Shown one piece after another: positions 14,877-47,338 of a DNA stretch of 58,085 nt. The notes under the pieces are model-generated. The model did not search any database, was not told where the DNA came from, and worked only from the letters and a program-made list of their open reading frames with translations. Numbering within the stretch: position 1 is the stretch's first letter; each line of letters opens with the position of its first letter. Location: positions 1 through 58,085 of the forward strand of contig CACKBA010000005.1 in NCBI GenBank assembly GCA_902598295.1, given 5' to 3'. Source of the DNA: an uncultured Bacteroidota bacterium (GTDB lineage: Bacteria > Bacteroidota > Bacteroidia > Flavobacteriales > Flavobacteriaceae). The position numbers were made by a program, and so were the translations under genes.

Positions 14877-16182
14877 GACAACACCAAAACCAAAATTTAA
14901 GGTTAAAGATATCTCTCTTGCCAATTGGGGACGCAAAGAAATTTTGCTTGCAGAATCAGAAATGCCAGGTCTAATGTCCCTGAGAAAGGAGTTTTCAAGT
15001 TCAAAACCATTGAAAGGTGCAAGAATTGCTGGTTGTTTACATATGACAATACAGACAGCTGTTTTAATTGAAACTTTAGTTGAATTAGGAGCAGAAGTTA
15101 CTTGGAGTTCATGTAATATTTTCTCAACACAGGATCACGCTGCAGCTGCTGTGGCTAAAGCTGGAATTCCAGTTTATGCGTGGAAAGGAATGTCAGAGGA
15201 AGAATTTGATTGGTGCATTGAGCAGACAATATTTTTTGGTGATGACAGAAAACCATTAAATATGATACTGGACGATGGAGGTGACTTGACAAATATGATT
15301 CTCGATAAATACCCTGAACTGATTCCGGGAATCAAAGGTATAACGGAGGAAACAACCACAGGTGTTTTAAGATTATATGAAAGAGAGAAAAATAGCTCTC
15401 TTCCGTTGCCAGCCATTAATGTTAATGATTCAGTTACTAAAGCAAAATTTGATAACAAATTTGGTTGTAGAGAATCTGCAGTAGATGCCGTAAGAAGGGC
15501 TACCGATATAATGTTAGCAGGAAAAAGAGTCGTAGTTTGTGGATATGGTGACGTGGGTAAAGGTACTGCAGCATCTTTTGCTTCCGCAAAATGTCTAGTT
15601 ACTGTAACTGAAATAGATCCAATTTGTGCATTACAAGCAGCTATGGACGGTTTTGAGGTAAAAAAATTATCAAACATTATTGATAAAATGGATATTGTTG
15701 TCACTGCCACTGGAAATAAAGATGTTGTAGTTGATCGACACTTCCTAAAAATGAAGGATAAGGCAATCATATGTAATATTGGACACTTCGACAACGAAAT
15801 TGATATGAGATGGTTGAATCTGCACTTTGGTCCAACCAAAGAGGAAATAAAACCCCAAGTTGATAAATACAATATTAACGGTAAAGAAATAATTGTACTT
15901 GCAGAAGGAAGGTTGGTAAATTTAGGATGTGCAACTGGTCATCCTAGTTTTGTAATGAGTACATCATTTACTAATCAAGTTATGGCTCAAATTGAGTTGT
16001 GGAAAAATTCTAGTAATTATGAAAATAGAGTTTATGTTTTACCAAAAATCCTTGATGAAAAAGTAGCTTACTTGCATCTTGAAAAGTTAGGGGTTGAAAT
16101 TGAAAAATTAACTAAGGAACAATCAGAATATATTGGTGTTTGCAAAAAGGGACCATTTAAATCTGATCAATACAAATATTAA
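14860..16182 (+). CDS. ahcY: S-adenosylhomocysteine hydrolase
   Basis: 440 residues. It is NAD-dependent and reversibly splits SAH to adenosine and homocysteine. [20 protein letters not shown] and the [11 protein letters not shown] segment form the substrate domain, [16 protein letters not shown] binds NAD, and the C-terminal [19 protein letters not shown] is the family tail. The start lies inside the 3' end of metK. The gene closes the pair before the polysaccharide locus, 56 bases upstream of the dehydrogenase. Confidence 0.95.
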
Positions 16183-28672: not shown

Positions 28673-28695
28673 GTCTAGAAATTGGATAAAATGAA

Positions 28696-28703
28696 TATAT
28701 TTG
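28696..28703 (+). promoter_or_regulatory. Bacteroidetes-type -7 element before the export gene
   Basis: TATATTTG, 17 bases before the ATG at 28721. Its last bases overlap a possible longer reading frame, which supports the downstream ATG as the true start. Confidence 0.4.
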
Positions 28704-28720
28704 CAACTCAAAATTTAAAA

Positions 28721-31345: not shown

Positions 31346-32445
31346 TGAGAAATAATCAAAAGGAAAATAGAAGCAATGAAGATTATTATGAATTTGACTT
31401 AAAAAAATTAGTTAATATTTTATTGCATGAAAAAAAACTTTTCATAAAAATTTCTTTGATATTTTTATTTGTTGGACTCGTAATTGCGGTTTTTTCTAAA
31501 AACTTCTATACATCACAAACTACTTTTGTCCCACAACTAAATTCAAACCTAAAATCAAGCAACAATTTAAGTGGTCTTGCTTCTTTGGCAGGTATAAATT
31601 TATCAAGTAATCAAGGAGAAATTAATCCAGATGTATATCCTGAGATTATTAATAGTATACCTTTCAAAATTGACTTGCTTGATAGTAAAATATTCTTTGA
31701 AAATGATTCAATAAATTATAGAAATTATTTACAAATAAAAAACAGAAAATTCTCACTAGTCCGTACTTTAAAGAAGTATACTTTAGGTTTACCTAGTTTA
31801 ATCCTTTCAAAACTGAAAACAAAAGGTGATTTAACATTTACCAATGCCCAGAATAAAATGTTTTTCATAAATGAAGAAGATTTTAAACTTTTCAAACTAG
31901 TAAATTCTGCCCTAAAAATTGAACTATTTCCCAAAGAGGGATATATAAAACTAAGTTACACTGACAATAATCCATATATTTCTGCTCAGGTTGCTTTCAA
32001 CGCCCAAGATATTTTACAACAAAAAATTATCAGTTATAAAAGTCAATCTGCTAATGAATTTTTAAAATATTCTAATAATCAATACAATCTTAAAAAACAA
32101 GAAAATATTACATTACAGGATAAGATTGGACTTTTTAAAGACCAAAATTTTGGAATTTCTAGATCTTTATATCAAAATAAATTAGACCGTTTAGAAAGTG
32201 AGTTATCAATATCAAATTCCGTTTTACAGCAATTGGCTAATCAGGTTGAGCAAGCCAAGTTACAAGTTAGCAAAGACACCCCTGTATTTAGTATAATTCA
32301 ACCTGTTTTTGTTCCCAATGAGAAAAGTGGACCAAAACGCTCTCTTATAGTATTATCATCTGGTTTTTTAGGAATATTTTTCTCTATTTTATTTATAGTT
32401 TTTAAACAAGATTTAGTTTCTTTCTTCAAAAATCTCAGAGAGTAA
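31345..32445 (+). CDS. Wzz-type chain-length determinant protein
   Basis: 366 residues. The first membrane helix is at about 36-55 (ISLIFLFVGLVIAVFS), followed by FYTSQTTFVPQ, which is the usual Wzz strand. A long periplasmic coiled-coil section (about 235-300) precedes the Pro-rich second membrane region (PVFVPNEKSGPKRSLIVLSS). No tyrosine kinase domain follows, so it is the Wzz form and not a full Wzc. It is the last gene of the rightward polysaccharide run and faces umuD across 3 bases. Confidence 0.83.
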   Translation: MRNNQKENRSNEDYYEFDLKKLVNILLHEKKLFIKISLIFLFVGLVIAVFSKNFYTSQTTFVPQLNSNLKSSNNLSGLASLAGINLSSNQGEINPDVYPEIINSIPFKIDLLDSKIFFENDSINYRNYLQIKNRKFSLVRTLKKYTLGLPSLILSKLKTKGDLTFTNAQNKMFFINEEDFKLFKLVNSALKIELFPKEGYIKLSYTDNNPYISAQVAFNAQDILQQKIISYKSQSANEFLKYSNNQYNLKKQENITLQDKIGLFKDQNFGISRSLYQNKLDRLESELSISNSVLQQLANQVEQAKLQVSKDTPVFSIIQPVFVPNEKSGPKRSLIVLSSGFLGIFFSILFIVFKQDLVSFFKNLRE

Positions 32446-32448
32446 GTT

Positions 32449-32880
32449 CTACATAGATTTAATTACATATGTCACAATCCCCCAAATAATTAAATTATTT
32501 TCCTCATCAACTTTAATTGCTTTGTAATTTTTATTTTCTGGTTTTAAATACAAGTCAGAGCCCCTTTTAATTATTCTTTTTACAGTAAAATCGCCATCAA
32601 TGAAACAAACTGCTATTTTATTGTGCTCTGGATCTAAACTACGATCAATCACAATCAAATCTCCATCGCTTAATCCCGCATTTATCATTGAGTCTCCGCT
32701 TACTTTCGCGTAAAAAGTAGCATCACCATTTTTCACTAGTTCTCTGTCCAAGCTTATTCTAATTTCCTTAAAATCGTCTGCAGGTGATGGAAATCCTGCC
32801 GATATTCCTTGTTCCATTAACCATTGACCTAAATTTTTTTCTTCCTCTGGTTGAAAGAAGTTTAATTTATCTTTTTTCAT
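32449..32880 (-). CDS. umuD: UmuD-like SOS mutagenesis peptidase
   Basis: 143 residues, S24/LexA family. The self-cleavage site is SAGFPSPADDF (Ala28-Gly29), the catalytic Ser64 is in SGDSM and Lys101 is in FTVKR. RecA-triggered cleavage would give the active UmuD' for polymerase V. It lies downstream of umuC with a 4-base ATGA overlap, which is the reverse of the usual umuD-umuC order. Confidence 0.92.
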   Translation of the reverse strand: MKKDKLNFFQPEEEKNLGQWLMEQGISAGFPSPADDFKEIRISLDRELVKNGDATFYAKVSGDSMINAGLSDGDLIVIDRSLDPEHNKIAVCFIDGDFTVKRIIKRGSDLYLKPENKNYKAIKVDEENNLIIWGIVTYVIKSM

Positions 32881-34136
32881 TTTACTCTTAGTATATCATT
32901 GATTTTTGTAGTATAGAGATTACTTAACCTTTCTTGTTTCATTTTCCATCTTTTTTTAAGGTCTTGACTTGCTAGCTTTATTTTACTTTGCCCATCTTTT
33001 TTTTGAATGTAGTCAATGGTTTTCATCAGTTTCCTATGTTTAGGATTTTCGTTCTCAAATAAATTTGTTTGATAATTTTTAATTGAGTTGATTGCCATTA
33101 CAATAACACCTGATTTTTTATAATTAAAACCAGACTTAAATATTTTTTTTAATCCTTCAGTTGCATATTTGCTTATTACCATATTAGAGTTTGTTGCAAA
33201 TGGTATTGTCATAAGTATCCCGTTCCTATATTGAGGTTTATTTTTCTGGAACTTATTACTTCTTACAAAAACATAAACTGCATTACATGTACTTTGTTGT
33301 AACCTTAGCTTTTCTGCGCAGCACACTGCAAAAGTTGATACCCTTTCTTTTATTTTTTCAAAATCTGTAATTGTGCCTTCAAAACTTCGGGTTGTAGCAA
33401 TTGCTTTTTTAGGTGATCGATTTTCTTCTAGACATAGGACAGATTCCCCATCCAATTCTTTTTTAAGCCTTAACCCTACAACACTCATTTGTTTTCTTAC
33501 CCAGTCATCGGGAAGAGATACAAAATCATAAGCACTATTTATTTCAAAACTTCTCAGTTTTTTTGCATGTCTAAATCCTATTCCCCAAACATTTTCAACT
33601 TCTAGCCATTTCAAGGCTTTAGTTCTTTTTTGTTTTGAATCAATTATATAAACCCCATTGGTTTTTTTTGGAAACTTTTTTGAAATTCTATTTGCTACCT
33701 TAGCCAAGGCTTTTGTAGGTGCTATACCTATACTTATGGGTATTCCCGTCCATTTAAGAACCTTTTTCTGTATTTCCTTGCAGTAGACTTCCAAGTTATA
33801 TTCTTGAAATCCCTTAAATTCTAAAAAAGCTTCATCGATACTATATATTTCAATATTAGGAGTGTAAGAGGATAGGATATTCATCACTCTACTACTCATG
33901 TCCCCGTAAAGGGGAAAGTTGGATGAAAATATTTTCACATTATTCTCTTTGAAAATTTTTTCATATTTGAAAGCCGGTGCGCCCATTGGAATACCAAGTT
34001 TCTTAGCTTCATTACTTCTTGAAATTGCACAACCATCATTATTAGATAAAACTATAACGGGTTTGTTATTTAGGCTTGGGTCAAAGACCCTTTCACATGA
34101 GACATAAAAATTATTACAATCGACTAAAGCAAACAT
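32877..34136 (-). CDS. umuC: Y-family translesion DNA polymerase UmuC
   Basis: 419 residues, full length. MFALVDCNNFYVSCERVFDP and YSIDEAFLEF provide the catalytic acidic residues; NNDGCAISRSNEAKKLGI is the UmuC finger motif. It is the catalytic subunit of DNA polymerase V. The gene begins 10 bases after the stop of the amidotransferase gene, so there is almost no room for its own promoter or SOS operator unless these lie inside that gene. Confidence 0.94.
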   Translation of the reverse strand: MFALVDCNNFYVSCERVFDPSLNNKPVIVLSNNDGCAISRSNEAKKLGIPMGAPAFKYEKIFKENNVKIFSSNFPLYGDMSSRVMNILSSYTPNIEIYSIDEAFLEFKGFQEYNLEVYCKEIQKKVLKWTGIPISIGIAPTKALAKVANRISKKFPKKTNGVYIIDSKQKRTKALKWLEVENVWGIGFRHAKKLRSFEINSAYDFVSLPDDWVRKQMSVVGLRLKKELDGESVLCLEENRSPKKAIATTRSFEGTITDFEKIKERVSTFAVCCAEKLRLQQSTCNAVYVFVRSNKFQKNKPQYRNGILMTIPFATNSNMVISKYATEGLKKIFKSGFNYKKSGVIVMAINSIKNYQTNLFENENPKHRKLMKTIDYIQKKDGQSKIKLASQDLKKRWKMKQERLSNLYTTKINDILRVK

Positions 34137-34146
34137 AATTTAAATA

Positions 34147-35295
34147 CTATTTGTTATTTAATTTGAAGTATTTATTAATCAATGAGTCTGGAATCATACC
34201 GAGTTTATTTGCAATGTACAGAGGTCCTTTTAATAATTTTATCAAACTATAGCTTGTTGGATAATCCTTAAAAGACTTTATTTTTTTATTCATGATTAAG
34301 TCAAACTCTTTTCCTGTTATCCCCAGTTTTTTAAGCGTATATATTTTTTGTGTCTCTCCGCCTATATAAGGGTCTTTTTTAAGTTTTATTATAGCACTTG
34401 ACCTATTAATTTGACCTGAACGAATCAATGCGGATAAGTGCAATTTTCTTTTATCAATTTTAAATTTTTTCATCAAAATATATGATTGAAAAAAAGAGGT
34501 ATATGATGATTCAAAGTGTTTGCCACCATAATCCCTCCATTTTAGTTTTGTCTTTAAAAGTTTTATGATTTTTTTTTCATCATAATCTAAATAGTAAAGA
34601 ATTCGTATCTGTTTAATTTTATAAAAAAAAGTGTATTTAAAGTAGTCAAATGCAGACATTAGAGGAAAACTTTTAATTTTTTTTCTACCAAATATTTTAT
34701 GAACAGATTTTACATATTTTCCATCCATATATGTCCAACTGAGAGGTGTAGATCCTTCTGTTCTAAAAGAATGTCCATGAATTATAAATTTTATATTTTC
34801 TTTTTTTGCAACTTCATATAAAACAGAAAAAATTACCCAATCTGTTGGCACTTCAGCATCAGGAACGGAAGCCTTTAAAAATGACAACTGTAAATCCTTA
34901 AATTCTTCCCAGTCTGCAACAACAGTTTCCAAGTCTACATTTAAAATTTTAGTTGCATTCCTAATGTTTTCAACTGCGATATCAGAGTTCCATCCATTAT
35001 CAAAATGGACTGCTAAGGGGTTCAACCCTAATTTTACAGCTTGAAATAAAGTGTACGTACTGTCTCTTCCTCCACTTACTCCTAATACACAATCATATTT
35101 TCTACTTCTTTTTTGATTCTTTATTTTCCTTATAACACTATCGAGTTCTTTTTTAGTTTTTTCAGTATTTAAAGGATATTTAGCTTCTAGTTCTTCGTGT
35201 ATTTTACAAAAATTACATATGTTATTATTATCAAATTGGATTTCTTCAATAGTATTATCAAGTACACACTTTGAGCAAACTTTTTCTACCGCCAT
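34147..35295 (-). CDS. N-acetyl sugar amidotransferase, WbuX/WbpG/PseA family (intact zinc site)
   Basis: 382 residues. The N-terminal zinc site is complete (C7, C10, C27, C30). The PP-loop is GVSGGRDSTYT and the HFDNGWNSDIAVENIRNATK region matches the paralogue at 20498. RTEGSTPLSWTYMDG replaces the SGGN segment of that copy. It probably activates an acetamido group or related carbonyl with ATP for amidation. There are no HisH/HisF genes beside it, so it may share those at 25306 and 25910. It is preceded by a nucleotidyltransferase-like gene (3-base gap). Confidence 0.85.
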   Translation of the reverse strand: MAVEKVCSKCVLDNTIEEIQFDNNNICNFCKIHEELEAKYPLNTEKTKKELDSVIRKIKNQKRSRKYDCVLGVSGGRDSTYTLFQAVKLGLNPLAVHFDNGWNSDIAVENIRNATKILNVDLETVVADWEEFKDLQLSFLKASVPDAEVPTDWVIFSVLYEVAKKENIKFIIHGHSFRTEGSTPLSWTYMDGKYVKSVHKIFGRKKIKSFPLMSAFDYFKYTFFYKIKQIRILYYLDYDEKKIIKLLKTKLKWRDYGGKHFESSYTSFFQSYILMKKFKIDKRKLHLSALIRSGQINRSSAIIKLKKDPYIGGETQKIYTLKKLGITGKEFDLIMNKKIKSFKDYPTSYSLIKLLKGPLYIANKLGMIPDSLINKYFKLNNK

Positions 35296-35298
35296 TTT

Positions 35299-36306
35299 TT
35301 AAGTATTAAATTTTTTGAATACATATTTTCGGTATTTACTATCAAAAATAAATTCAAAAAATTGCAAAAATCTAGTTGGAATAACCTTTATTAAACCAAC
35401 AATAAAATTATCAATTAAATAATAAAACTTATAGGTTTTCTTAAAATAAAACCTTATCAAAATTATTCTGTCTACTAGATTGATTTTCTTAATATTATGA
35501 GTAATACCAAGTGTGTCTGTTATTAAAAAAAAATTTCTAATATCTCTAATTTTAAAATCCTTTGAGTCCATTTCATGTTTTTTGCTTAATAGAACATAGT
35601 CATAAATTGATCTAAAACTGTAGGAAAGGCTTGTTGCTCCGTAGTCATTTACTTGATAATTCAAAACACAAAGTTTAAGTAGATAATTATTTTTTTTTAA
35701 TCTCTTCGATTCTAACAGTTCTTTTGCAGGTAACAAATTTCTCTTAAAATACCTTAGTTGTTCACGGTGTATTTCTACAGAAAAAAGTTTTTTGGTATTT
35801 ATCAACTTTGGAATATGAGGTCGAATCCAAAATTTTTTTGTGTCAACTTTACTATTTTTATATCCATTTTTTAATAGTATTTTTTCTGTGAGATTTAAAT
35901 CACTTTTATTCACTAAAAAATCTATATCACCAACCATTCTTTCTCCTAAATTATCATAAAGGTTGGTTTTTATATTATAAGCTCCTTTTACAAATAGATG
36001 AGAAATATTATTTTCTGCTAAAATTTTAGAAAGTTCATTTAATTCTTTTATTAAAATTTGATTTCTTCGATTATTTTCTTCAAATATCTTTTTTAAAAAA
36101 GAATTTAAATCTTCAGGAAAGAATTTTAATAAGTTCTTTTTTTTTGCGTTTGAGTACAGCGCAGGAAGTATCAAATGTGAACTGGCAATTTTAACTAACT
36201 TTTCAAAACAAACGTTTTTAAATTCATCTAGTTCAATGTCTTCTTTTTTAAAAAGGATACTTATGATTAGTTTTTCCTCATTAGATATTATTAAATTAAA
36301 ATACAT
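35299..36306 (-). CDS. Nucleotidyltransferase-family protein (NTP_transf_5-like)
   Basis: 335 residues. The motif LFVKGAYNIKTNLYDNLGERMVGDIDFLV contains the GDxD metal-binding pattern of the NTP_transf_5 type, which is frequent in polysaccharide loci. The C-terminal 100 residues are basic and hydrophobic. The substrate is unknown. It is the first gene of the leftward unit with the amidotransferase and umuC-umuD, divergent from the cupin gene across 34 bases. Confidence 0.7.
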   Translation of the reverse strand: MYFNLIISNEEKLIISILFKKEDIELDEFKNVCFEKLVKIASSHLILPALYSNAKKKNLLKFFPEDLNSFLKKIFEENNRRNQILIKELNELSKILAENNISHLFVKGAYNIKTNLYDNLGERMVGDIDFLVNKSDLNLTEKILLKNGYKNSKVDTKKFWIRPHIPKLINTKKLFSVEIHREQLRYFKRNLLPAKELLESKRLKKNNYLLKLCVLNYQVNDYGATSLSYSFRSIYDYVLLSKKHEMDSKDFKIRDIRNFFLITDTLGITHNIKKINLVDRIILIRFYFKKTYKFYYLIDNFIVGLIKVIPTRFLQFFEFIFDSKYRKYVFKKFNT

Positions 36307-36340
36307 TAATTAAATTTAATTAAATCAACGGTTTTAATCA

Positions 36341-36823
36341 GTGAACTATTTAGAAAAAATAGAAAAAGACATTCTTGACAAAGATTTAAAAATTATCGAC
36401 AAAGATTTTAAAAGACCGTGGGGTGGATTTATTGTAATAGACGAAAATGATATTCAATCATTTAAGTCAATTTTTTTTCCAAAAATTCATTCAAATACTA
36501 TTGAACAATTTGATAAATTAAGTCCCAAGATTCTAATTTTGAAACCAAGATCAAGACTTTCTTGGCAATATCATTACAGGAGAGAAGAAATTTGGATGGT
36601 ATATAAGGGTAATGTTGGTGTAGTTGTTAGTGATACAGATGAAGAAAAAGAAATGATAAAACTAAGTGAGGGAGATCAAATTAAGCTCAAAAAAGAACAG
36701 AGACACAGGTTGATTGGATTGGATGATTGGTCAGTGATTGCTGAGATTTGGCAACACATAGAAAAGGACAATCCCTCAGATGAAGATGATATTGTTAGAA
36801 TTAGTGATGATTATGGAAGATAA
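36341..36823 (+). CDS. Cupin-domain protein (mannose-6-phosphate isomerase type II-like)
   Basis: 160 residues. The cupin strands hold RPWGGFIVID, LSWQYHYRREEIWMVYKGN (His and Glu metal ligands) and GDQIKLKKEQRHRLIG. This is the pattern of the C-terminal cupin of phosphomannose isomerase/GDP-mannose pyrophosphorylase proteins. In flavobacteria such single cupins are often labelled phosphoheptose or phosphomannose isomerase; activity is unproven. The start is GTG at 36341. Confidence 0.65.
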   Translation: MNYLEKIEKDILDKDLKIIDKDFKRPWGGFIVIDENDIQSFKSIFFPKIHSNTIEQFDKLSPKILILKPRSRLSWQYHYRREEIWMVYKGNVGVVVSDTDEEKEMIKLSEGDQIKLKKEQRHRLIGLDDWSVIAEIWQHIEKDNPSDEDDIVRISDDYGR

Positions 36824-36873
36824 GTACTGAAAATACCGGGATAAGTTGTAATTTTATAATGTAATCGGATTAT

Positions 36874-39609
36874 ATGGATCCTTACTCTTTTTTAAATACT
36901 GCGCACACAGCATTTTTTGCAGAATTATACAATGAATATCTACTAGATCCTTATTCTGTTGAACCTACTTGGAGAGCATTTTTTCAAGGTTTTGAATTTG
37001 GTGTTGATAAGAAATCAAAAAATGAAGATTTTTTAATACCGGAAAATATTCTCAAAGAGTTTAGGGTTGTTGAATTAATTAATGCTTACAGAACAAGAGG
37101 ACACCTTTTTACAAAAACAAATCCGGTAAGAGAAAGAAGAAAATATTTGCCAACATTGGATATAGAAAATTTTGGTCTTTCTAATGAAGATTTGCAATCA
37201 ACATTTAATGCTGGGGAGATTATTGGAATTGGCAATTCAAGCCTTGAAAATATCTTAATTCATTTAGAAAGAATTTATTGTGATTCAATTGGTATTGAAT
37301 ACATGTATATAAGAACCCCTGAGAGAATTAAGTGGATTCAAGGTTTCTTAAATAAAAATGACAATCACCCTGAGTTCAACAATCATAAGAAAAAACAAAT
37401 ACTAAAAAAATTAATTCAGGCGTCAAGTTTTGAAAGTTTTCTCCAAAAAAAGTTTGTTGGACAAAAAAGATTTTCTTTGGAGGGGGGAGAGTCACTAATA
37501 CCCTTACTTGATTCTATTTTTGAAAGTGCAGCATTAAAAGGCGTTAAAGAGTTTGTTGTTGGAATGGCTCATCGTGGAAGACTTAATACTTTATCAAATA
37601 TTTTTGGTAAACCTGCAAAAGAAATTTTTAGTGAATTTGTGGGAAAGGATTACGAGGAACAAATTTTTGATGGAGATGTAAAATATCATCTTGGTTGGAC
37701 TTCTAAGAGAAAATCAGATTCGGGTATTAATGTTTATATTAATTTAGCCCCAAATCCGTCTCATCTTGAATCTGTTGGTCCAGTTGTGCAAGGAATAACC
37801 CGAGCTAAGCAAGATAAGTATCATAAAGAAAATATTGAAAATGTTTTACCAGTAATCATACATGGTGATGCAGCAATTTCTGGTCAAGGTGTTGTGTATG
37901 AAGTTGTTCAGATGGAAAGGCTTAAAGGTTTTAAAACTGGAGGAACCATTCATATAGTTGTAAATAATCAGATAGGTTTCACAACTAATTATATCGATGG
38001 ACGATCATCCACCTATTGTACAGATGTGGGTAAAGCAAATTTATGTCCAATATTACATGTAAACGCTGATGATGCTGAAGCTGTTGTACATGCTTCAAAT
38101 TTTGCTTTGGAGTATAGAATGAGATATAAAAGGGATGTTTTCATTGATTTGTTAGGTTATCGAAAATATGGCCATAATGAAGGTGATGAACCAAGATTTA
38201 CCCAGCCAAAACTTTATAAGTCTATTGCGAATCATCCATCAGTTAAGGAAATTTATTCTAAAAAATTAATTAAAGAAAATATCATATCTGATTCTGAATT
38301 AAAGGAAATGGAGAAACAATATGCTGATGAATTGGATTCGGATCTTGTTGATTCTAAAAAATCAAAAAATGCAATAATAACTCCTTTTATGCAACATGAG
38401 TGGAAGGGATTTAAATCCGTGAAGCAATCTGATATGATGAAAAAAGTTGAAACCTCTGTTAGTGAAAAAGATTTGGATAAAGTTTCCAGGAGCTTATTTG
38501 AACTTGATGGTCCTGATCAATATTTAAGAAAAGTTTCAAAATTAATGTCAGACAGAAAGACAATGTATTTTGAAAAGGACAAGATTGACTGGGCGATAGC
38601 TGAAACTCTTGCTTATGGTACTGTGCTAAATGAAGGTTATAACGTTAGAATTTCAGGACAAGATGTAGAAAGAGGAACTTTTTCTCACAGACATGCCATT
38701 CTTAAAAAAGAAAAGTCCGAAGAAGAGTACATACCATTAAACAATGTATCTAAAAATCAAGGTACATTTGAAATATATAATTCATCATTATCAGAATATG
38801 GTGTGATGGGTTACGAATATGGTTATGCACTTGCTTCACCTAAAACATTAACAATATGGGAAGCACAATTTGGAGACTTTAGTAACGGAGCTCAAATAAT
38901 GATAGATCAATATTTATCTTCAGCAGAGGATAAATGGAAACTCCAAAATGGATTGATATTGATGCTACCCCATGGATATGAAGGACAAGGTGCAGAACAC
39001 TCATCTGCTCGTTTAGAAAGATATCTTCAACTATGTGCAAAAGACAATATGTTTGTTGCAAATTGCACAACACCAGCAAATTTATTCCACCTTTTAAGAA
39101 GACAGATTGTTACAAAGTATAGGAAGCCTTTGGTTTTGATGACGCCTAAAAGCCTTCTAAGACATCCAAAAGTTATTTCATCAAAAAACAACTTAATTAA
39201 TGGTCAGTTTAACCCAATAATTGATGATGAAAATATTAAAAACCCCGAGAAATTGGTCTTTTGTAGTGGTAAGTTTTTTTATGATTTAATTGATTTCAGG
39301 GAAAAGAATCATATCAAAAATGTTGCGATAGTTAGAATAGAACAATTATTCCCCCTCCCTGTTGAATCTATAAAAAACCTTATTGATAAATACAATGCAA
39401 AGGACATTATTTGGGCTCAAGAAGAACCAAGAAATATGGGGGCATGGGGACACATATTAATGCATTTAGAATTTGCAAAATCATTTAGAGTTGCATCAAG
39501 AAGATTTTACAGTTCCCCAGCATCAGGTAGTGCTGTTAGGTTTAAAAGAAGACATAAGCAAGTGATTGAGTATGTATTTGATGAAAAAAAAGATAATTTT
39601 AAAAAATAA
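36874..39609 (+). CDS. sucA: 2-oxoglutarate dehydrogenase E1 component
   Basis: 911 residues. It is the thiamine-diphosphate decarboxylase that passes a succinyl group to the E2 lipoyl domain in the TCA cycle. The N-terminal E2-binding helix region (SFLNTAHTAFFAELYNEYL), GMAHRGRLNTL, GDAAISGQGVVYEVVQM (ThDP/Mg site) and the C-terminal WAQEEPRNMGAWGHI are family marks. The stop is 3 bases before the PNGase F-like gene, with the E2 gene beyond that. Confidence 0.95.
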   Translation: MDPYSFLNTAHTAFFAELYNEYLLDPYSVEPTWRAFFQGFEFGVDKKSKNEDFLIPENILKEFRVVELINAYRTRGHLFTKTNPVRERRKYLPTLDIENFGLSNEDLQSTFNAGEIIGIGNSSLENILIHLERIYCDSIGIEYMYIRTPERIKWIQGFLNKNDNHPEFNNHKKKQILKKLIQASSFESFLQKKFVGQKRFSLEGGESLIPLLDSIFESAALKGVKEFVVGMAHRGRLNTLSNIFGKPAKEIFSEFVGKDYEEQIFDGDVKYHLGWTSKRKSDSGINVYINLAPNPSHLESVGPVVQGITRAKQDKYHKENIENVLPVIIHGDAAISGQGVVYEVVQMERLKGFKTGGTIHIVVNNQIGFTTNYIDGRSSTYCTDVGKANLCPILHVNADDAEAVVHASNFALEYRMRYKRDVFIDLLGYRKYGHNEGDEPRFTQPKLYKSIANHPSVKEIYSKKLIKENIISDSELKEMEKQYADELDSDLVDSKKSKNAIITPFMQHEWKGFKSVKQSDMMKKVETSVSEKDLDKVSRSLFELDGPDQYLRKVSKLMSDRKTMYFEKDKIDWAIAETLAYGTVLNEGYNVRISGQDVERGTFSHRHAILKKEKSEEEYIPLNNVSKNQGTFEIYNSSLSEYGVMGYEYGYALASPKTLTIWEAQFGDFSNGAQIMIDQYLSSAEDKWKLQNGLILMLPHGYEGQGAEHSSARLERYLQLCAKDNMFVANCTTPANLFHLLRRQIVTKYRKPLVLMTPKSLLRHPKVISSKNNLINGQFNPIIDDENIKNPEKLVFCSGKFFYDLIDFREKNHIKNVAIVRIEQLFPLPVESIKNLIDKYNAKDIIWAQEEPRNMGAWGHILMHLEFAKSFRVASRRFYSSPASGSAVRFKRRHKQVIEYVFDEKKDNFKK

Positions 39610-39612
39610 TTA

Positions 39613-41016
39613 ATGATGTTTAAAAACATGAATCTAAAAACAATTAAGTCATTAAGTCTAGTTCTAATGGCCTTTATATTTATTTATTGCAGCAAAGATG
39701 GTGGTGATTCAAATAATGAAAATATTCCCAATAAGTCAATAGTCGTTAATCCTTCTTCAATTGATTTTTCAGATACAATGGTTACCAAAAATTCAGATGC
39801 TAAAACTGTGAATATTAACCCTAACAATTTGGATTCAAATATTACAATCTCTGTCTCTGGTGATTTTGAAATATCCTCAAATAATCTAAATTTTTCAAAC
39901 TCACTCACTGTTGATGGTTCATCAACAACTAACATTTTTGTTAGATTTTCACCAACGGAAGTTGGAAATATGAATGGAAATCTTTTATTTGAAAGTTCTG
40001 GTGCTGGTAATGCAAATGTAAGTTTAGCGGGAACTTCCACAAGGTTAAAATATAATTACAGAACTTTTTCCAATCAAAGAATTGCATGGGGAGGAGGACA
40101 TGGTCAGTCATCAGTTAAAAACTTTGACTTACATAATGATGTTAGCGATATTGAGATGATTAAAATGTATTTACGGTTGGATTGTCCGTCTGGTGGTTGT
40201 GATCCATGGGACAGATATGCCAATATTATGGTAAGAGATAAAGTAACCAACGAGTGGTTTGAAATTGGTCGTCATATTACACCTTATGGTGTAGATAATA
40301 AAGCACTATCCAGAGGTCTTGAGTTTGATGTTACGGATTTTAAAAGTTTATTAAATGGTAATGTTGAATTAAGAATTTTTGTTGAGACTTGGGTTAGTTC
40401 AGGATGGATAGTTTCTTTAGAGTTTGATTTTATTCCAGGTACCCCTGATTACAATTACTATAAAGTTTCTAGAATTATTCAATACAATGGAAACTCTTTA
40501 GGGGGAGTGCCTTACGGTGGATTGAATGGCAATCCTGAAATTGATTTAGAAAAGTTTGATTTGATAAAATCTCTTCAAATTGGAAGTAATATTGAAAGTG
40601 CTCACATAAGAACCATAGTAACCGGTTGGGGACATGCGACACCTGCTGATTCAGATGGAAGAGCATGTGCGGAATGGTGTTTTAGAACCCACAACATTAA
40701 AATTGATGATTCTAGTCTTTTTAGTCATTATATGGGACCGATTGGTTGTTCTCAAAATCCAATTAATAATCAAGGTGGTAATTGGGCACCTGATAGGGCA
40801 GGGTGGTGCCCAGGGATGACGGTTCCTGTCAGAATTGATAAATTTGGGAATGATTTATCTAACAAAACCTTGATATACGAGTATGACTTTGAGAATTGGA
40901 CAAATGATTTTGTAGGAACACCAGGATATAACAACAAAAATGCTTTTTATGCTATATCCTCATTCTTGATTTTAAAAAGTAATAGTGAAATTGAAAGAGC
41001 AATAATATCTGACTAG
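39613..41016 (+). CDS. PNGase F-like peptide-N-glycosidase, secreted lipoprotein
   Basis: 467 residues. A signal peptide ends near C26 ([11 protein letters not shown]), suggesting a lipid-anchored surface protein, though Tyr at -1 is unusual for a lipobox. Residues about 40-142 form an HYDIN/choice-of-anchor-like beta domain. Residues about 150-465 match Elizabethkingia PNGase [10 protein letters not shown] (D200, the equivalent of D60), VETW (E258, E118) and [10 protein letters not shown] (E354, E206). The cysteine pairs 191/196, 352/356 and 379/399 also match. The known enzyme cleaves N-linked glycans from asparagine. The gene lies between sucA and sucB with 3- and 1-base gaps. Confidence 0.9.
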
Positions 41017-41017
41017 A

Positions 41018-42247
41018 ATGATACTTGAAATGAAAGTCCCGTCACCAGGTGAATCTATTTCTGAGGTTGAAATAGCACAGTGGCTAGTAACTGATGGTGA
41101 TTATGTTGAAAAAGACCAAACCATTGCTGAGGTTGATTCCGATAAAGCAACACTCGACTTGCCTGCTGAGGAGTCGGGAGTTATCACATTGAAAGCAAAC
41201 GAAGGCGATGTAGTACCTGTTGGAAATGTCGTTTGCCATATTGATACATCAGTAAAAAAATCAGTTAAAAAGCATATTGAAGTTTCAAACCCAACTAAAG
41301 ATGATAAACTTATGGATAAAGATCCAGAGCTTCAATCTAAACCAGAGAAAATCATGTCTGAAAAGGCAAAAAATTCTTCTCCATCACCAGCTGCATCCAA
41401 AATTTTAAGTGAAAAGGGAATAAATCCACTTGATATAGTTGGTTCTGGAAGAGGTGGAAGAATTACCAAGGAAGATGCCCTAAAGGCATTGCCAAAAATT
41501 GATGAAACCTCAATTTCGAAAGGAAGAAAAATAGAGCGAAAGAAATTATCAATGCTTAGAAGAAAACTTTCCCAGAGATTGGTAGCTGTAAAAAATCAAA
41601 CAGCCATGTTGACAACCTTTAATGAAGTTAACATGACTCCAATTTTCGAAATAAGAAAGAAATACAAGGAAATATTTAAAGAAAAACATGGTGTTAGTCT
41701 AGGTTTTATGAGTTTTTTTACAAAAGCTGTTGTTAACGCATTAAAGGAATTTCCTGATGTTCACTCAATGATTGATGAAGATCACAAACTCAGTTTTGAT
41801 TTTTATGATATTAGTATTGCTGTCTCGGGACCTAAAGGTTTGTTGGTCCCTGTGGTTAGGGATGCTGATAAATTAACTTTTAGTGGAATTGAAAAAGAAA
41901 TTAAGCGTTTGGCAATAAAAGCAAGAGATGGTGAAATCTCCATTGAAGATATGGAAGGGGGAACTTTCACCATCTCAAACGGAGGTGTATTTGGTTCAAT
42001 GTTATCAACTCCTATACTTAATCCTCCTCAATCATCTATTTTAGGAATGCATAACATCATTGAGAGACCAATCGCAGTTGATGGGAAAGTTGAAATACAC
42101 CCAATGATGTATTTAGCCTTGAGTTATGACCATAGGATAATTGACGGAAAAGAATCAGTTGGATTTTTACTTAAAATCAAAGAAGCTCTTGAAAACCCTT
42201 TTGAAACTCTAATGAATAATAACCTTAAAAAATCTTTAGAGATTTAA
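41018..42247 (+). CDS. sucB: 2-oxoglutarate dehydrogenase E2 (dihydrolipoyl succinyltransferase)
   Basis: 409 residues in the usual E2 order. The lipoyl domain has K43 in [11 protein letters not shown], a charged linker follows, and the peripheral-subunit-binding domain (about 125-160, [19 protein letters not shown]) comes next. The catalytic domain has HRIIDG near residue 370. The start is one base after the PNGase F-like stop. The E3 subunit is not in the window. Its end overlaps the convergent retropepsin-like gene by 12 bases. Confidence 0.95.
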
Positions 42248-42670
42248 TTTCAAGTAAATTTTCCTTTCAGTAAAATTTATAAGTGCTTCATATTTACTCA
42301 AAATATCATTACCAATTATCCCATGAATTTCAATGGTCTCGTGCTCTCTCAAAGTTTTATTAATATGATTCATATCAAAAACAAATAATTTAAAATTTTC
42401 AATCCTAAAACCAACAATATCAATTGAATTGTTTGTTGATGTTTGCATGTTTTTTATCTTTTCTGTTGCACTTGATGCTTCCTCATCATAATTTTCAATT
42501 TTAATATTAAATGTTTCAACGCTGTTCGAATCAATACAAGAATTCGAAGCACCCGTATCTATAATGAATTTTGCTGATACTCCATTTACCTGGCAATCAG
42601 TTACTAAGTGTCCCGATTTAAGAATTTTAAAATCTTTTGACAGATGATTATTTGTTTTTTCAACTTCCAT
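42236..42670 (-). CDS. Retropepsin-like clan AA aspartic protease
   Basis: 144 residues. [12 protein letters not shown] is the catalytic DTG loop and [15 protein letters not shown] is the second conserved glycine turn; the single DTG implies a homodimer. The ATG at 42670 is used; a GTG at 42727 would add 19 residues and overlap the tatD start. Physiological substrate unknown. It is divergent from tatD and convergent with sucB. Confidence 0.75.
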
Positions 42671-42697
42671 ATTCAAACTAATTAGTACTAAATTAAA

Positions 42698-42705
42698 TAA
42701 CTTTG
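42698..42705 (+). promoter_or_regulatory. tatD: Bacteroidetes-type -7 element before tatD
   Basis: TAACTTTG matches TAnnTTTG and ends 5 bases before the tatD ATG at 42711. Transcription would begin at or within a few bases of the start codon. Confidence 0.4.
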
Positions 42706-42710
42706 TTGTT

Positions 42711-43493
42711 ATGGAAATAATAGACACTCACACTCATCTATATTTGAAACAATTTGATGATGATTTTGAGGATACTATAAATCGTTCTCTAGATAAGAGT
42801 ATCTCTAAATTTGTTTTTCCATCCATTTCATCAAAGTATTATGATAAAATGATAGAATGCAAAAAAAAATATCCAAAAAATATTTTCTTGATGCTTGGTT
42901 TACACCCTGTCTACGTTGATAAAAATTATCTCCAGGAGCTTGACTTTATCAAAAATGAGATAGATCATAACAATTTTGTTGCTGTTGGAGAAATTGGTTT
43001 AGACAAATATTGGGGTACAAAATTTTACAAACAACAAATTGAAGCTTTTGAAATTCAAATTGATTTGGCATTAGAGAAAAACCTACCAATAATTATACAT
43101 TGTAGAAATGCTTATGAGGATGTAATCACTATTTTAGAAAAGAAAAAAAATAAAAATCTTAGAGGAATTTTTCATTGTTTTACAGGATCTTTAGAAGATG
43201 CACAAAGAATCATAAATTTAGACTTTAGTTTAGGAATTGGTGGCGTGGTAACTTTTAAAAATGGTAAAATCGATCAATTCTTACACAAGATTAGTTTAAA
43301 AAATATAGTTCTAGAAACAGATTCCCCTTATCTGGCACCAGTTCCTTATAGAGGTAAAAGAAACGAAAGTTCATATATTATTCATGTAATAGAAAAACTA
43401 AGTGAAATTTATGATTTAAAAACTGATCAAATTATTCAGCAAACAAGTTTGAATTCACATAAAATTTTTAATTTCGATGCCCAGCAAATTTAG
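42711..43493 (+). CDS. tatD: TatD-family metal-dependent hydrolase/DNase
   Basis: 260 residues. The metal-site motifs IDTHTHLYLKQF, GEIGLDKYW, IIHCRNAYED, IFHCFTGSLEDA and ETDSPYLAPVPYRGKRN appear in order. TatD proteins are 3'-5' exonucleases or deoxyribonucleases linked to DNA repair and fragmentation. The TAG stop at 43491-43493 overlaps the first two bases of tRNA-Ser. Confidence 0.92.
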   Translation: MEIIDTHTHLYLKQFDDDFEDTINRSLDKSISKFVFPSISSKYYDKMIECKKKYPKNIFLMLGLHPVYVDKNYLQELDFIKNEIDHNNFVAVGEIGLDKYWGTKFYKQQIEAFEIQIDLALEKNLPIIIHCRNAYEDVITILEKKKNKNLRGIFHCFTGSLEDAQRIINLDFSLGIGGVVTFKNGKIDQFLHKISLKNIVLETDSPYLAPVPYRGKRNESSYIIHVIEKLSEIYDLKTDQIIQQTSLNSHKIFNFDAQQI

Positions 43494-43579
43494 AGAGGTG
43501 GCCGAGTGGCTTAAGGCGCACGCTTGGAAAGCGTGTATACGTTAATAGCGTATCGAGGGTTCGAATCCCTTCCTCTCTG
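43492..43579 (+). tRNA. tRNA-Ser (anticodon GGA)
   Basis: The 88-base class II tRNA has acceptor strands AGAGAGG and CCTCTCT and anticodon stem CACGC/GCGTG around loop TTGGAAA (anticodon GGA, reading UCC and UCU). It has a long variable arm and T arm GAGGG-TTCGAAT-CCCTT, in which the outermost pair is a G-T. The discriminator is G, as expected for serine. The CCA tail is not encoded. Its 5' end lies within the tatD stop codon. Confidence 0.95.
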
Positions 43580-43658
43580 CTAACCCATAATTTTAATTTA
43601 TAAAAGGAGTTTTGATTAAAAAAGCTCTTTATAATTGAATTTTAGTAATTTAGACTTA

Positions 43659-44045
43659 ATGAAAAAACTAACCTTATTATTATTTGTTGCACTTATGTTT
43701 TCTTGTGGTGGTATGAGATATGGCAGTGATGCAGAAAATAAAAGGTTTGCAAACAACTTTATGGTTAATGAGGGAATGACAAAACAAGAGGTTGTTAATA
43801 TAATGGGAAATCCTGTAGCTAGTGAATTTGATTCAGGTGTTGAGGAGTTTCACTATTGCAAAACAGGATGGGGTGCTGATGATTATGTTTCATTCTACTT
43901 TAAAGATGGTAAAGTGATTTCTAAAACATCATATAATGTTACATTTTCTGAAGTTGGTACTGCTGGTCATTGTAGTAAATTCATTAAGAGAGGAACATAC
44001 AGAACACCTGACAGGGTTGTTGAAATTAGAGCAACTATCAACTAA
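43659..44045 (+). CDS. BamE/SmpA-like lipoprotein
   Basis: 128 residues. The lipoprotein signal MKKLTLLLFVALMFSCGG (Cys16) is clear. The body contains NEGMTKQEVVNIMGNPVASE, the short helix and loop pattern of SmpA/OmlA (BamE) domains, followed by strands. It may take part in outer-membrane assembly, but SmpA-like domains are common in small lipoproteins. The ATG at 43659 gives the full signal peptide; a TTG at 43635 is in frame upstream. Confidence 0.7.
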   Translation: MKKLTLLLFVALMFSCGGMRYGSDAENKRFANNFMVNEGMTKQEVVNIMGNPVASEFDSGVEEFHYCKTGWGADDYVSFYFKDGKVISKTSYNVTFSEVGTAGHCSKFIKRGTYRTPDRVVEIRATIN

Positions 44046-44049
44046 ATAA

Positions 44050-44077
44050 TTAACCACACTATAAGTGTATTTGTTAA
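44050..44077. other. Interrupted inverted repeat in intergenic region
   Basis: TTAAC-C-ACACT-ATA-AGTGT-ATTT-GTTAA: two nested 5-base arms around an ATA centre, just past the lipoprotein stop. No T-run follows, so it does not look like an intrinsic terminator. The rest of the 234-base gap to exbB (44046-44279) is AT-rich, and I see no gene or clear promoter in it. Confidence 0.35.
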
Positions 44078-44279
44078 GTTATTTCAAAACACCTTAATTA
44101 ATACCCTACTATTTTTTAACTTAACTTTATATTTATAGACCAATGTTATAGTAAGTTCTCTATTATACATTAAAGAATAAGTATGTGCAACTTAAATGCC
44201 CAACACTTAATCGATTTTGATTTGTGTTTATAAGTTTTTTATATATATTTAGCCATCCAAAAACTATAATAAAATAAAG

Positions 44280-45077
44280 ATGAAAAAATTACTAACTCTA
44301 GCTTTTGCATTTGCATTGTTCTATTTTTTACCACAACAAATGCACGCAAACATAAATCAAGAACAAGAAGAAGAGGTTGAGGTTGTTGAAGCTCCTGTAG
44401 AAGAAACTCAAGAAGAACCTCAAATGACTGTTGCTGAAGCTCCATCTGTAGGGTTTACTCAAGAATTAAAAAATAGATTCATTGAGGGTGGTCCTGGGTT
44501 TATGGGTATTGTTTTAGCATGTCTTATATTGGGTCTAGCGATTGCAATTGAAAGGATAATTTATTTAAACTTTGCAACCACCAATACAGAAAAACTGGTT
44601 GAGGATGTAGAATCAGCGTTAAAGTCTGGTGGAGTAGACTCTGCAAAAGAAATTTGTAGGAATACCCCTGGTCCTGTTGCTTCAATTTTTTACCAGGGTC
44701 TTGATAGAGCTGGAGAAGGCGTTGAAAGTGCTGAAAAAGCTGTTGTTGCTTACGGTGGTGTTCAAATGGGACAACTAGAGAAAAATGTATCGTGGATTTC
44801 ATTGTTTATTGCTTTGGCTCCTATGCTCGGTTTTATGGGTACGGTTATCGGTATGATTCAAGCCTTTGATAAAATTCAGGCGGCAGGTGATATGCAGCCA
44901 TCTCTGGTTGCTGGTGGTATTAAGGTTGCACTTCTAACAACTGTATTCGGTTTGATTGTTGCCATCATTTTACAAATATTTTATAATTACATTGTAGCTA
45001 AAATTGACAGTATTGTCAATGATATGGAGGATGCTTCAATTACATTGATAGATATTTTAGTATCTCACAAGAAATAA
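44280..45077 (+). CDS. exbB: ExbB/TolQ/MotA-family proton channel
   Basis: 265 residues. The N-terminal signal-like segment (MKKLLTLAFAFALFYFLPQQ) and an acidic Glu/Val/Pro stretch (about 28-55) precede three membrane helices. LAPMLGFMGTVIGMIQAF and LLTTVFGLIVAIILQI are the pore-helix motifs of the family. It forms the inner-membrane proton channel that powers TonB receptors such as those at 47452 and 52270. It is the first gene of a five-gene run. Confidence 0.92.
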   Translation: MKKLLTLAFAFALFYFLPQQMHANINQEQEEEVEVVEAPVEETQEEPQMTVAEAPSVGFTQELKNRFIEGGPGFMGIVLACLILGLAIAIERIIYLNFATTNTEKLVEDVESALKSGGVDSAKEICRNTPGPVASIFYQGLDRAGEGVESAEKAVVAYGGVQMGQLEKNVSWISLFIALAPMLGFMGTVIGMIQAFDKIQAAGDMQPSLVAGGIKVALLTTVFGLIVAIILQIFYNYIVAKIDSIVNDMEDASITLIDILVSHKK

Positions 45078-45083
45078 TTTCAG

Positions 45084-45533
45084 ATGAATATTCAAAAAAT
45101 AACTAATATAGTTTCTTGGACACTCGGATTATTGGGCTTGTTGTTCTTATTTATTTTAATATTTCAAGGTGATGATTCGATTGAAGCAAATGCTATGCAG
45201 GGAAATTATGGTTTTGTCTCGTATATGATTTGGTTAGCGATAATTGTTTTATCCCTAGTTACCTTATCAACCCTTGTTTTTTCTCTAAAAAATATTGCAT
45301 CAGATAAATCTAAACTCAAAAAGTTTGGAATGTCAATTGGTACTTTTTTTGTTGTGATTATAGTTGCTTTTATTTTTTCATCTGGTGTTGAAACTCCAAT
45401 GGGTGATGGTAAAGTTTTATCTGCTACTGGATCTAGGTTTGTTGAAACTGGAATCAAGACTTTTTATTTCCTAGTTTTAATTGCGGGGGGTTTAATGGTT
45501 TTTAATTCCATAAGTAAATTATTCAAAAAATAG
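45084..45533 (+). CDS. Four-helix inner-membrane protein of the ExbB-ExbD operon
   Basis: 149 residues with about four membrane helices (roughly 10-27, 46-66, 83-100, 125-142). No catalytic motif is visible. A protein of this size and topology between ExbB and ExbD is a recurring Bacteroidetes arrangement as far as I recall, which suggests a part of the energy-transducing complex. Function unknown. Confidence 0.7.
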   Translation: MNIQKITNIVSWTLGLLGLLFLFILIFQGDDSIEANAMQGNYGFVSYMIWLAIIVLSLVTLSTLVFSLKNIASDKSKLKKFGMSIGTFFVVIIVAFIFSSGVETPMGDGKVLSATGSRFVETGIKTFYFLVLIAGGLMVFNSISKLFKK

Positions 45534-45536
45534 AAT

Positions 45537-46160
45537 ATGGCAAGAAGATCAGCACCTGAAGTTAATGCTGGTTCAATGGCGGACATCGCGTTTTTGCTAT
45601 TGATTTTTTTTCTTGTTACAACCACAATTGAAACTGATTCTGGTATAAACAGAAAACTTCCTCCTATGGAAGAAATAATTGATCCTCCTATAATCAAAGA
45701 AAGAAATATTTTTACCGTTGTAGTAAACAAAAATAATCAGATACTTGTCGAGGAGGAGTTGATGAATCTTAGTGATTTAAGAAAAGAAGCCGTAGCTTTT
45801 TTAGATAATGGTGGAGGACTGGCTGAGGAAGCTTGCGATTATTGTCAAGGTGAAAGAGATCGTTCATCGTCTGATAACCCTGATAAAGCGATTATTTCTC
45901 TCAAGAATGATAGAGAAACTGATTATAAAGTTTACATATCTGTCCAAAACGAATTAGTGGCCGCTTATAATCAACTCAGAAATAGAGAATTTGCAAGGTT
46001 ATATCCTGAGGAAAACATGAGTTATGTTGAGGCTGATAAGAAGTATTCTGATCCTAGGACTGATAAATCTGTCAAGGAAAAACTAAAAGAAAAAATTTCT
46101 GTAATAAAATTGATGTTTCCAATGAAATTATCAGAAGCAGAGCCAAATAAAACGAGTTAA
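45537..46160 (+). CDS. exbD: ExbD/TolR-family protein (long form)
   Basis: 207 residues. A short cytoplasmic start precedes the single helix SMADIAFLLLIFFLV with the essential Asp16. The periplasmic domain is extended and holds a CDYC pair (EEACDYCQGERDR, about 99-111) and a late charged tail. It starts 3 bases after the four-helix protein gene. The CxxC suggests a disulfide or metal site, not present in classical ExbD. Confidence 0.88.
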   Translation: MARRSAPEVNAGSMADIAFLLLIFFLVTTTIETDSGINRKLPPMEEIIDPPIIKERNIFTVVVNKNNQILVEEELMNLSDLRKEAVAFLDNGGGLAEEACDYCQGERDRSSSDNPDKAIISLKNDRETDYKVYISVQNELVAAYNQLRNREFARLYPEENMSYVEADKKYSDPRTDKSVKEKLKEKISVIKLMFPMKLSEAEPNKTS

Positions 46161-46162
46161 TT

Positions 46163-46642
46163 ATGTCTAAATTCAAGAAAAAAGGAAGTGGTGAGTTACC
46201 AAAGATTTCAACAGCATCTTTGCCAGATATTGTTTTCATGCTTCTTTTCTTTTTTATGGTTGCTACTGTTTTAAGAGATAATACCTTACTTATTCAGAAC
46301 ACATTACCTGCTGCAGATCAGGTACAAAAATTAGATAAAAAGGACCGTGTAATATATATATATGCTGGAAAGCCAAGTTCTAGGTATCAAGACAAATATG
46401 GTAATCAGCCAAGAATACAACTTAATGACAAATTTGCTACGGTAGCTGATGTTGGAGCTTATGTATTGGCAGAAAGAGCTGCTAAAAGGGAAGAACTTCA
46501 AAATGTACTAACTACTGCACTCAAAGTAGATGGTGAAACAAAAATGGGTTTAATAAGTGACATCAAACAAGAACTTAGAAAGGTTAACGCTTTAAAAATA
46601 AATTACACCACTAGAATTGGTGATTACTCACAGAATCAATAA
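46163..46642 (+). CDS. exbD: ExbD/TolR-family protein (second copy)
   Basis: 159 residues. The helix TASLPDIVFMLLFFFMVATV carries the essential Asp22. The periplasmic domain follows, ending in a TRIGDYSQNQ tail. Two ExbD paralogues after one ExbB are usual in this phylum. It starts 2 bases after the first exbD copy. Confidence 0.87.
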   Translation: MSKFKKKGSGELPKISTASLPDIVFMLLFFFMVATVLRDNTLLIQNTLPAADQVQKLDKKDRVIYIYAGKPSSRYQDKYGNQPRIQLNDKFATVADVGAYVLAERAAKREELQNVLTTALKVDGETKMGLISDIKQELRKVNALKINYTTRIGDYSQNQ

Positions 46643-46684
46643 TTACCTACATCATACTTTTTTTATCTTTATCAAAATTACCCA

Positions 46685-47338
46685 ATGAAGATAAGATGCT
46701 TTATTTTTTACATTATACTGTTTCTCTCTCTTGACTTATTTTCACAAGAAAATCAAAAGTATTTTGAAGATCAATTTTACCTCGGTTTGGCTTACAATTC
46801 GCTTGGGGCAAAAGTTGAAGATTTTAAAGAAAATAAATTCTCTTATTCTCTTAATTATGGTTTTATCAAGGATATTCCCGTAACTAAAAATGGAAAGATT
46901 GCACTTGGATTAGGTTTAGGATTTTCACACAATTCACTCAATAATAATCTAAAGTTTAAAAATCCGGGCTTTGAGTTTCAACAAAATGTTGGCTCAATCA
47001 ATATCAACAGGTATAACTATACAGAATTCCAAATCCCTTTCGAAATCAGATGGAGAAATTCCTCCGTAGATAATTATAAATTTTGGAGAATTTATTCTGG
47101 ATTAAGATATTCTAGAGTTATTAATTCAAAATATACTTACAAGGATAATACGTTAATAAATGAAATTGATTTTTTGCCAATCAATAAGAATCAGTTGGGA
47201 TTAACTCTTAATATTGGTTTCAACACTTGGAATATTAGCCTGTACCAGTCATTAAATTCTTTTTTTAACCCAGGTTTAAACAGCAACATTAAAGATTTAA
47301 AGCAATTCAGATTGGGAATAATCTTTTACATATTATAA
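46685..47338 (+). CDS. Outer-membrane beta-barrel protein (PorT-like)
   Basis: 217 residues. The signal peptide (MKIRCFIFYIILFLSLDLFS, then QEN) is followed by alternating aromatic/glycine strands and a C-terminal FRLGIIFYIL strand ending in an aromatic/hydrophobic residue. This fits the small PorT/OMP_b-brl family. It follows exbD by 42 bases; a link with TonB uptake is suggested by position only. Confidence 0.7.
   Translation: MKIRCFIFYIILFLSLDLFSQENQKYFEDQFYLGLAYNSLGAKVEDFKENKFSYSLNYGFIKDIPVTKNGKIALGLGLGFSHNSLNNNLKFKNPGFEFQQNVGSININRYNYTEFQIPFEIRWRNSSVDNYKFWRIYSGLRYSRVINSKYTYKDNTLINEIDFLPINKNQLGLTLNIGFNTWNISLYQSLNSFFNPGLNSNIKDLKQFRLGIIFYIL

Follow-up and report, generated by a model that had tools for sequence, protein, structure and literature searches.

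A predicted PNGase F-type lipoprotein gene between sucA and sucB of a small-genome flavobacterium

Results

The window (the whole 58,085-nucleotide stretch of DNA analyzed here) comes from a flavobacterium with a small genome, in which a predicted N-deglycosylase gene is wedged between two genes of the citric acid cycle, sucA and sucB. The 2-oxoglutarate dehydrogenase E1 gene sucA (36874..39609, + strand, 911 aa) was identified by Pfam and NCBIfam equivalog matches, passing TIGR00239 with 1036 bits vs. a cut-off of 770, and a probe from its C-terminal part found a single match in the window genome. The E2 gene sucB (41018..42247, + strand, 409 aa) was identified by NCBIfam equivalog matches and passed TIGR01347 (478.3 bits vs. 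a cut-off of 378.65). Between them lies an intact open reading frame (ORF) of 467 aa (39613..41016, + strand), the second half of which is a PNGase F. It begins after a 3-base gap behind the end of sucA at 39609 and leaves 1 base before the sucB start at 41018, the spacing that the initial annotation of this DNA had described. A recent phage or plasmid origin of the gene was ruled out, as phages gave no match, no match in viral contigs was confirmed, and plasmids yielded one distant match (32%).

Upstream, the window carries a polysaccharide-type cluster that comprises genes of the exopolysaccharide export and chain-length types (28682-32445) as well as wbuX (34147-35295). A umuC-like translesion polymerase gene with a small adjoining ORF (32449-34136, - strand) lies between the polysaccharide genes and sucA, and this region stays near sucA in several congeneric genomes. 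Downstream, a small gene for a retropepsin-like aspartyl protease (42236-42727, - strand) is convergent to sucB, and its homologues are found near sucB in many relatives.

Residues 147-465 match PNGase F of Elizabethkingia meningoseptica (1pnf) with an E value of 1.3e-108 and 46-50% identity over about 320 aligned residues. Both Pfam domains passed their cut-offs (PF09112, 29.0 bits vs. 22.4; PF09113, 37.9 vs. 25), defining a two-domain catalytic region at 40051..41013 (+ strand). In the 1pnf alignment, the codons of D200 (40210..40212), E258 (40384..40386), and E354 (40672..40674; all + strand) correspond to D60, E118, and E206, which we take to be the key acidic residues of PNGase F, and six cysteines of the catalytic half (C191, C196, C352, C356, C379, and C399) align with those of the E. 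meningoseptica enzyme. The homology, the acidic residues, and the cysteines noted in the initial annotation are thus confirmed by Pfam, the 1pnf alignment, and the homologues. PNGase F also ranked first in the PDB in Foldseek searches with both AlphaFold2 models (TMt 0.70-0.76). As these models were built on 8-row alignments and reached a mean pLDDT of only 61.0 and 59.8, with the N-terminal stalk as the sole well-modeled part, the assignment of the catalytic half to the two-domain jelly-roll fold relies mainly on sequence.

The catalytic part is under purifying selection as strong as that on its neighbors: omega was 0.044, 0.035, and 0.071 in three pairwise comparisons, in which sucA gave 0.043, 0.051, and 0.059 and sucB 0.066, 0.066, and 0.064. 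D200 and E354 were invariant in 49/49 homologues checked, distant ones included. Position 258 varies in the distant homologue group and is aspartate in one congeneric genome (G309; L036/L042). This aspartate is what would favor an inactive relic or a binding protein, a reading that we consider scarcely credible given the low omega and the retention of the other two acidic residues throughout. The chemistry of PNGase F would be carried over from the family, of which the window enzyme is a new member.

The protein starts with a signal peptide and a lipobox (39613..39690, + strand; FIYC, with the cysteine at residue 26, followed by SKDGGD). A lipobox-type cysteine was present in 34/34 homologues that reached at least 47% identity and whose 5' ends were complete, a set that omits two sequences cut by contig ends (L022 and L023) and the distant L025-L031. 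Published surface-export signals include C-X-K-(D/E)2-X, SDDDD, and SDDFE (PMC5080379). Of these, the window motif CSKDGGD has the lysine and one aspartate of the lipoprotein export signal (LES) pattern in place and lacks the second acid. At least two acidic residues at positions +2 to +6 of the cysteine occurred in 26/34 homologues, vs. one in the window protein. From these motifs, surface exposure of the window lipoprotein appears likely.

An Ig/ASH (HYDIN-like) stalk domain follows (39724..40050, + strand, boundaries approximate). Profile scores remained under cut-off (ASH, 23.1 vs. 27; Cep192_D4, 27.1 vs. 35.5; choice_anch_D, 25.8 vs. 45; Pfam and NCBIfam), while the stalk model, with pLDDT values of 70-94, matched HYDIN (2ys4; TMt 0.57, rmsd 3.4) and, by Foldseek, the SPD-2 structures of CEP192. 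The stalk changes faster than the enzyme (omega of 0.10-0.29 vs. 0.035-0.07). The distance from the lipobox cysteine to the first catalytic cysteine falls into four classes, 60-68 (n = 4), 164-173 (n = 24), 269-281 (n = 5), and 389 (n = 1), which we read as zero, one, two, or three stalk units in 4, 24, 5, and 1 proteins. Direct support for this reading comes from the longest homologue (L005), which contains three matches to the N-terminal domain of the window protein. Two of the earlier proposals on this region therefore stand, the lipoprotein-type start through the lipobox-type cysteine and the HYDIN-like fold through the structural match, its Pfam scores being below cut-off. The proposal that the N-terminal domain is an addition peculiar to this version does not hold, since by spacing at least one unit is present in 30/34 close homologues and exactly one in 24/34. 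Judged in this way, the anchored stalk form is not special to the window protein and is common in the family to which this genome belongs.

A PNGase match was found in 15/23 congeneric genomes, and in 12/23 the gene lies directly upstream of sucB, so that the insertion that the initial annotation had suggested surveying is conserved in relatives and no accident of assembly. Assembly artefact as the source of the arrangement was ruled out by these 12 genomes together with the contigs L032-L036, which agree with the 12 and are not independent of them (L032 and G149 share the same coordinates; L033-L036 pair with G318, G307, G303, and G309 by equal identities). In 9 of the 12, sucA is directly upstream of the PNGase gene (G000, G149, G318, G307, G303, G309, G315, G313, and G316). 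In the other three (G305, G308, and G317) sucA and the PNGase gene are separated by about 3.0 kb that carry metK, ahcY, and a small ORF of methyltransferase type, labels that derive from Pfam searches of the window metK and ahcY and of the small ORF of G308. The small ORF inside the sucA-sucB gap is PEMT/ICMT-like (L097 in G308, L098 in G317, and L099 in G305). In the window, metK-ahcY (13599-16182) is next to the polysaccharide cluster, at a distance of about 21 kb upstream from sucA.

Three further genomes (G301, G314, and G299) have the PNGase outside sucAB, with identities of 60-63%. In the sister genomes G314 and G312 sucA and sucB are 9 bases apart, and in G004, of another genus, 12 bases, counted from the last aligned codon. 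G301 has an opposite-strand ORF of 345 aa without a Pfam match separating sucA and sucB (L100, 7915-8952). G306, whose sucB fragment lies over metK in opposite orientation at the end of a contig, was left uncounted, and the junction was out of view in G299, G300, G302, G304, G310, G311, and G319, which showed no true sucB (best matches of 28-36% identity).

In the PNGase tree, the 12 proteins located in sucAB form one clade (100/100), with the PNGases of G301, G314, G299, and MED-G65 outside it. The same 12 genomes also cluster in the sucB tree, with a support of 88/80, which is under the mark for strong support. Because the 12 group in both trees, a single move in the ancestor of this clade is the simplest reading, and on this phylogenetic evidence the insertion looks old and apparently single. 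The three genomes with the metK group do not form one clade in either tree, so this group was acquired and later lost, or acquired on two occasions. Synonymous divergence (pS) of the window from G309 is 0.68 in the PNGase gene, i.e., near saturation, vs. 0.43 in sucA and 0.28 in sucB. Allele exchange through the flanks would explain this divergence; faster change is the alternative. Across the stretch compared (32877-47338; L109), the gene at 46685-47338 is also at a pS of 0.68.

Spacing was measured in ten relatives, G313 being omitted. The sucA-PNGase gap was 3-8 bases in 7/10, the other three having the metK group between, and the PNGase-sucB gap was 1-41 bases in 10/10. A separate promoter and terminator, which would have set the gene apart from sucA and sucB, showed no sign beyond chance: sigma-70-like sites (35 vs. 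30.7 expected) and terminator-like sites (2 vs. 2.7 expected, one of them inside the 3' end of sucA at 39518-39535) were at chance level, and the Bacteroidetes-type promoter pattern occurred three times in the window vs. 5.2 expected, with none between 36542 and 41018. One promoter-like site with 10 of 12 matching positions (40991-41019) runs into the start codon of sucB. RNA folding at the sucA-PNGase and PNGase-sucB junctions was weaker than in most shuffles. Owing to the tight spacing and the lack of promoter, terminator, or junction folding signals beyond chance, a common transcript of the PNGase gene with sucA and sucB is the most likely arrangement.

Across the family, we surveyed the gap in those 90 of 289 Flavobacteriaceae genomes that had both genes among the matches listed, measuring from the last aligned sucA codon. 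Gaps were 12-143 bases (n = 75), 420-465 (n = 4), 980-1083 (n = 9), and 1411 (n = 2), both of the latter in genomes of the window's genus. Among the matches listed, 13/88 Flavobacteriaceae outside the genus thus carry a different protein at the junction, each as one ORF on the sucAB strand with a signal-peptide-like start as judged by eye. Pfam searches of nine of these 13 identified the five ORFs of about 1 kb as M23 peptidases that include a DUF3887 region (cut-off passed in 4/5), and the short ones as DUF3887 (three, above cut-off in 2/3) and Dabb (one); the remaining four of the nine long ORFs were classed by similar visible N-terminal sequence alone. The long ORFs (L116-L124, in G008, G018, G126, G129, G148, G176, G217, G218, and G222) encode about 320-370 aa, and the short ones are L125, L126, and L128 (in G068, G193, and G282) and L127 (in G199). 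Beyond the genus, 21 PNGases reached at least 47% identity, and none had sucA or sucB within 1.5 kb, two of these loci being cut by contig ends; in G117 the PNGase is about 7 kb from sucA.

Four glycosidase families (GH92, GH38, GH18, and GH20) were surveyed in the 23 congeneric genomes. GH92 was found in 1/23 (G301), GH38 in 0/23, GH20 in 16/23, and GH18 in 15/23. The six closest genomes (G000, G149, G303, G307, G309, and G318) had no match to any of these families. Their completeness is 57-87%, and the chance that all six miss a common gene is about 1.7e-4 if losses are independent. GH18 and GH20 matches were present in the remaining six genomes of the 12 (G305, G308, G313, G315, G316, and G317), and SusD-type proteins in 23/23 genomes. 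In G299 (L103), the same-strand neighbors of the PNGase gene encode a protein without a Pfam match, an NHL-repeat protein, and a BNR sialidase-like protein.

Discussion

With a probability of roughly 0.6, we favor the reading that a membrane-anchored PNGase F moved into sucAB, is co-transcribed there, and deprotects glycoproteins for proteases. A lipid-modified cysteine would anchor the enzyme, probably at the cell surface, with one Ig/ASH-like domain serving as a stalk. The two-domain catalytic part would hydrolyze the Asn-GlcNAc bond via the conserved acidic residues, by analogy with PNGase F. The gene would have been relocated from elsewhere into the sucA-sucB junction in the ancestor of the 12-genome clade. 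Since co-transcription with sucA and sucB is most likely in view of gaps of 3 and 1 bases and of promoter- and terminator-like sites at chance level, expression would track respiration and growth and would not depend on whether glycoproteins are present. Removal of N-glycans would open planktonic eukaryotic glycoproteins to proteases, and the presumed gain is peptide, not sugar. Among NS5 marine flavobacteria, according to PMC9122927, PULs are almost absent from the small-genome genus NS5_A (1.17 Mbp), which may depend more on proteins.

Whether the position matters for regulation is the point on which a different account has considerable weight, although we put it somewhat short of even odds. 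The PNGase would be a working passenger in a rearranging region near the polysaccharide cluster, at a junction that accommodates additional genes, and its move would have brought no gain. Other cargo at this junction consists of the metK-ahcY-methyltransferase group of three genomes, the opposite-strand ORF of G301, and the exported proteins at the junction in 13/88 genomes outside the genus, among the matches listed; the pS of the G309 gene relative to its flanks likewise looks as if alleles had been exchanged. However, the gene is kept in all 12 clade members with tight same-strand spacing, and 13/13 additional genes seen outside the genus share the sucAB strand. The broader idea that the junction is a recurrent docking site for exported hydrolases of different lineages (PNGase F here, M23 peptidase with DUF3887 in nine other genomes), so that surface digestion runs in step with the TCA cycle instead of being induced by substrate, with a surface deglycosylase unaccompanied by the usual glycosidases opening glycoproteins for proteolysis in this clade, is tentative, and the odds are against it.

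As to the substrate, the initial annotation suggested that the cell may free glycans, and an extension of this, in which released N-glycans are imported and eaten, is what PMC12381499 gives as the role of PNGases in prokaryotes. The SusD-type importers in all genomes fit such feeding, as do GH18 and GH20 in half of the 12, the sialidase-like neighbor of the G299 PNGase outside sucAB, and the combination of GH92, GH18, and GH20 in G301. GH92 is absent from 22/23 genomes and GH38 from 23/23, however, and the six closest lack all four families. Freeing of glycans for use is thereby weakened; some room is left for it, because GH18 and GH20 occur in the other six of the 12 and SusD-type proteins in all 23 genomes. 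We regard glycan feeding as unlikely and by inference prefer deglycosylation that opens the protein to proteases. A bacterial substrate, i.e., a glycoprotein or surface glycan of the cell itself or of its neighbors, would suit the polysaccharide-type genes in the same window, yet PNGases outside sucAB do not share this neighborhood and the known target of PNGase F is Asn-linked GlcNAc (PMC12381499 and PMC10154615), making this quite improbable.

Enzymes of this superfamily serve as glycobiology tools, and the usual explanation for them is food gathering. The present PNGase is an anchored orphan retained within the 2-oxoglutarate dehydrogenase pair of small-genome planktonic flavobacteria, and its closest relatives show no mannosidase match in the families surveyed, which points instead to the opening of glycoproteins. 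Repeated use of the junction by exported proteins raises the testable question of whether surface digestion is wired to central metabolism. Our literature search found no paper on a PNGase together with sucA/sucB. The conserved location of a PNGase inside this gene pair is apparently new, and so is the occupation of the junction by other exported proteins; we found neither described.

The window protein shares with E. meningoseptica PNGase F (1pnf, 1pgs, and 3pms) the acidic triad, the six cysteines, the W-D-R motif, and the arginine and tryptophan of the C-terminal site, and differs from it in its lipoprotein start, its Ig/ASH stalk, and its place in sucAB. PNGase F-II (4r4x/4r4z) and the B. 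massiliensis PNGase (7zgn) belong to the same superfamily and likewise have an accessory domain before the catalytic part. In both this is an N-terminal bowl-like domain, and Foldseek identity of 4r4z and 7zgn to the window model is only 12-16%; a bowl-like domain of the PNGase F-II type was not seen in the window protein, whose front domain matches the ASH domains of HYDIN and CEP192 in Foldseek. PNGaseL of Flavobacterium akiainvivens is another flavobacterial member of the superfamily and, as described in PMC12381499, is set apart by a C-terminal module and a T9SS signal where the window protein has a lipid anchor. According to the same paper, most of the six PNGases studied are orphans in their genomes, and by that account an orphan PNGase is ordinary. 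The exported M23 peptidase/DUF3887 genes of other Flavobacteriaceae resemble the PNGase gene in using the same junction on the same strand for a product bearing a signal peptide. They belong to an unrelated protein family, and a separate insertion is probable.
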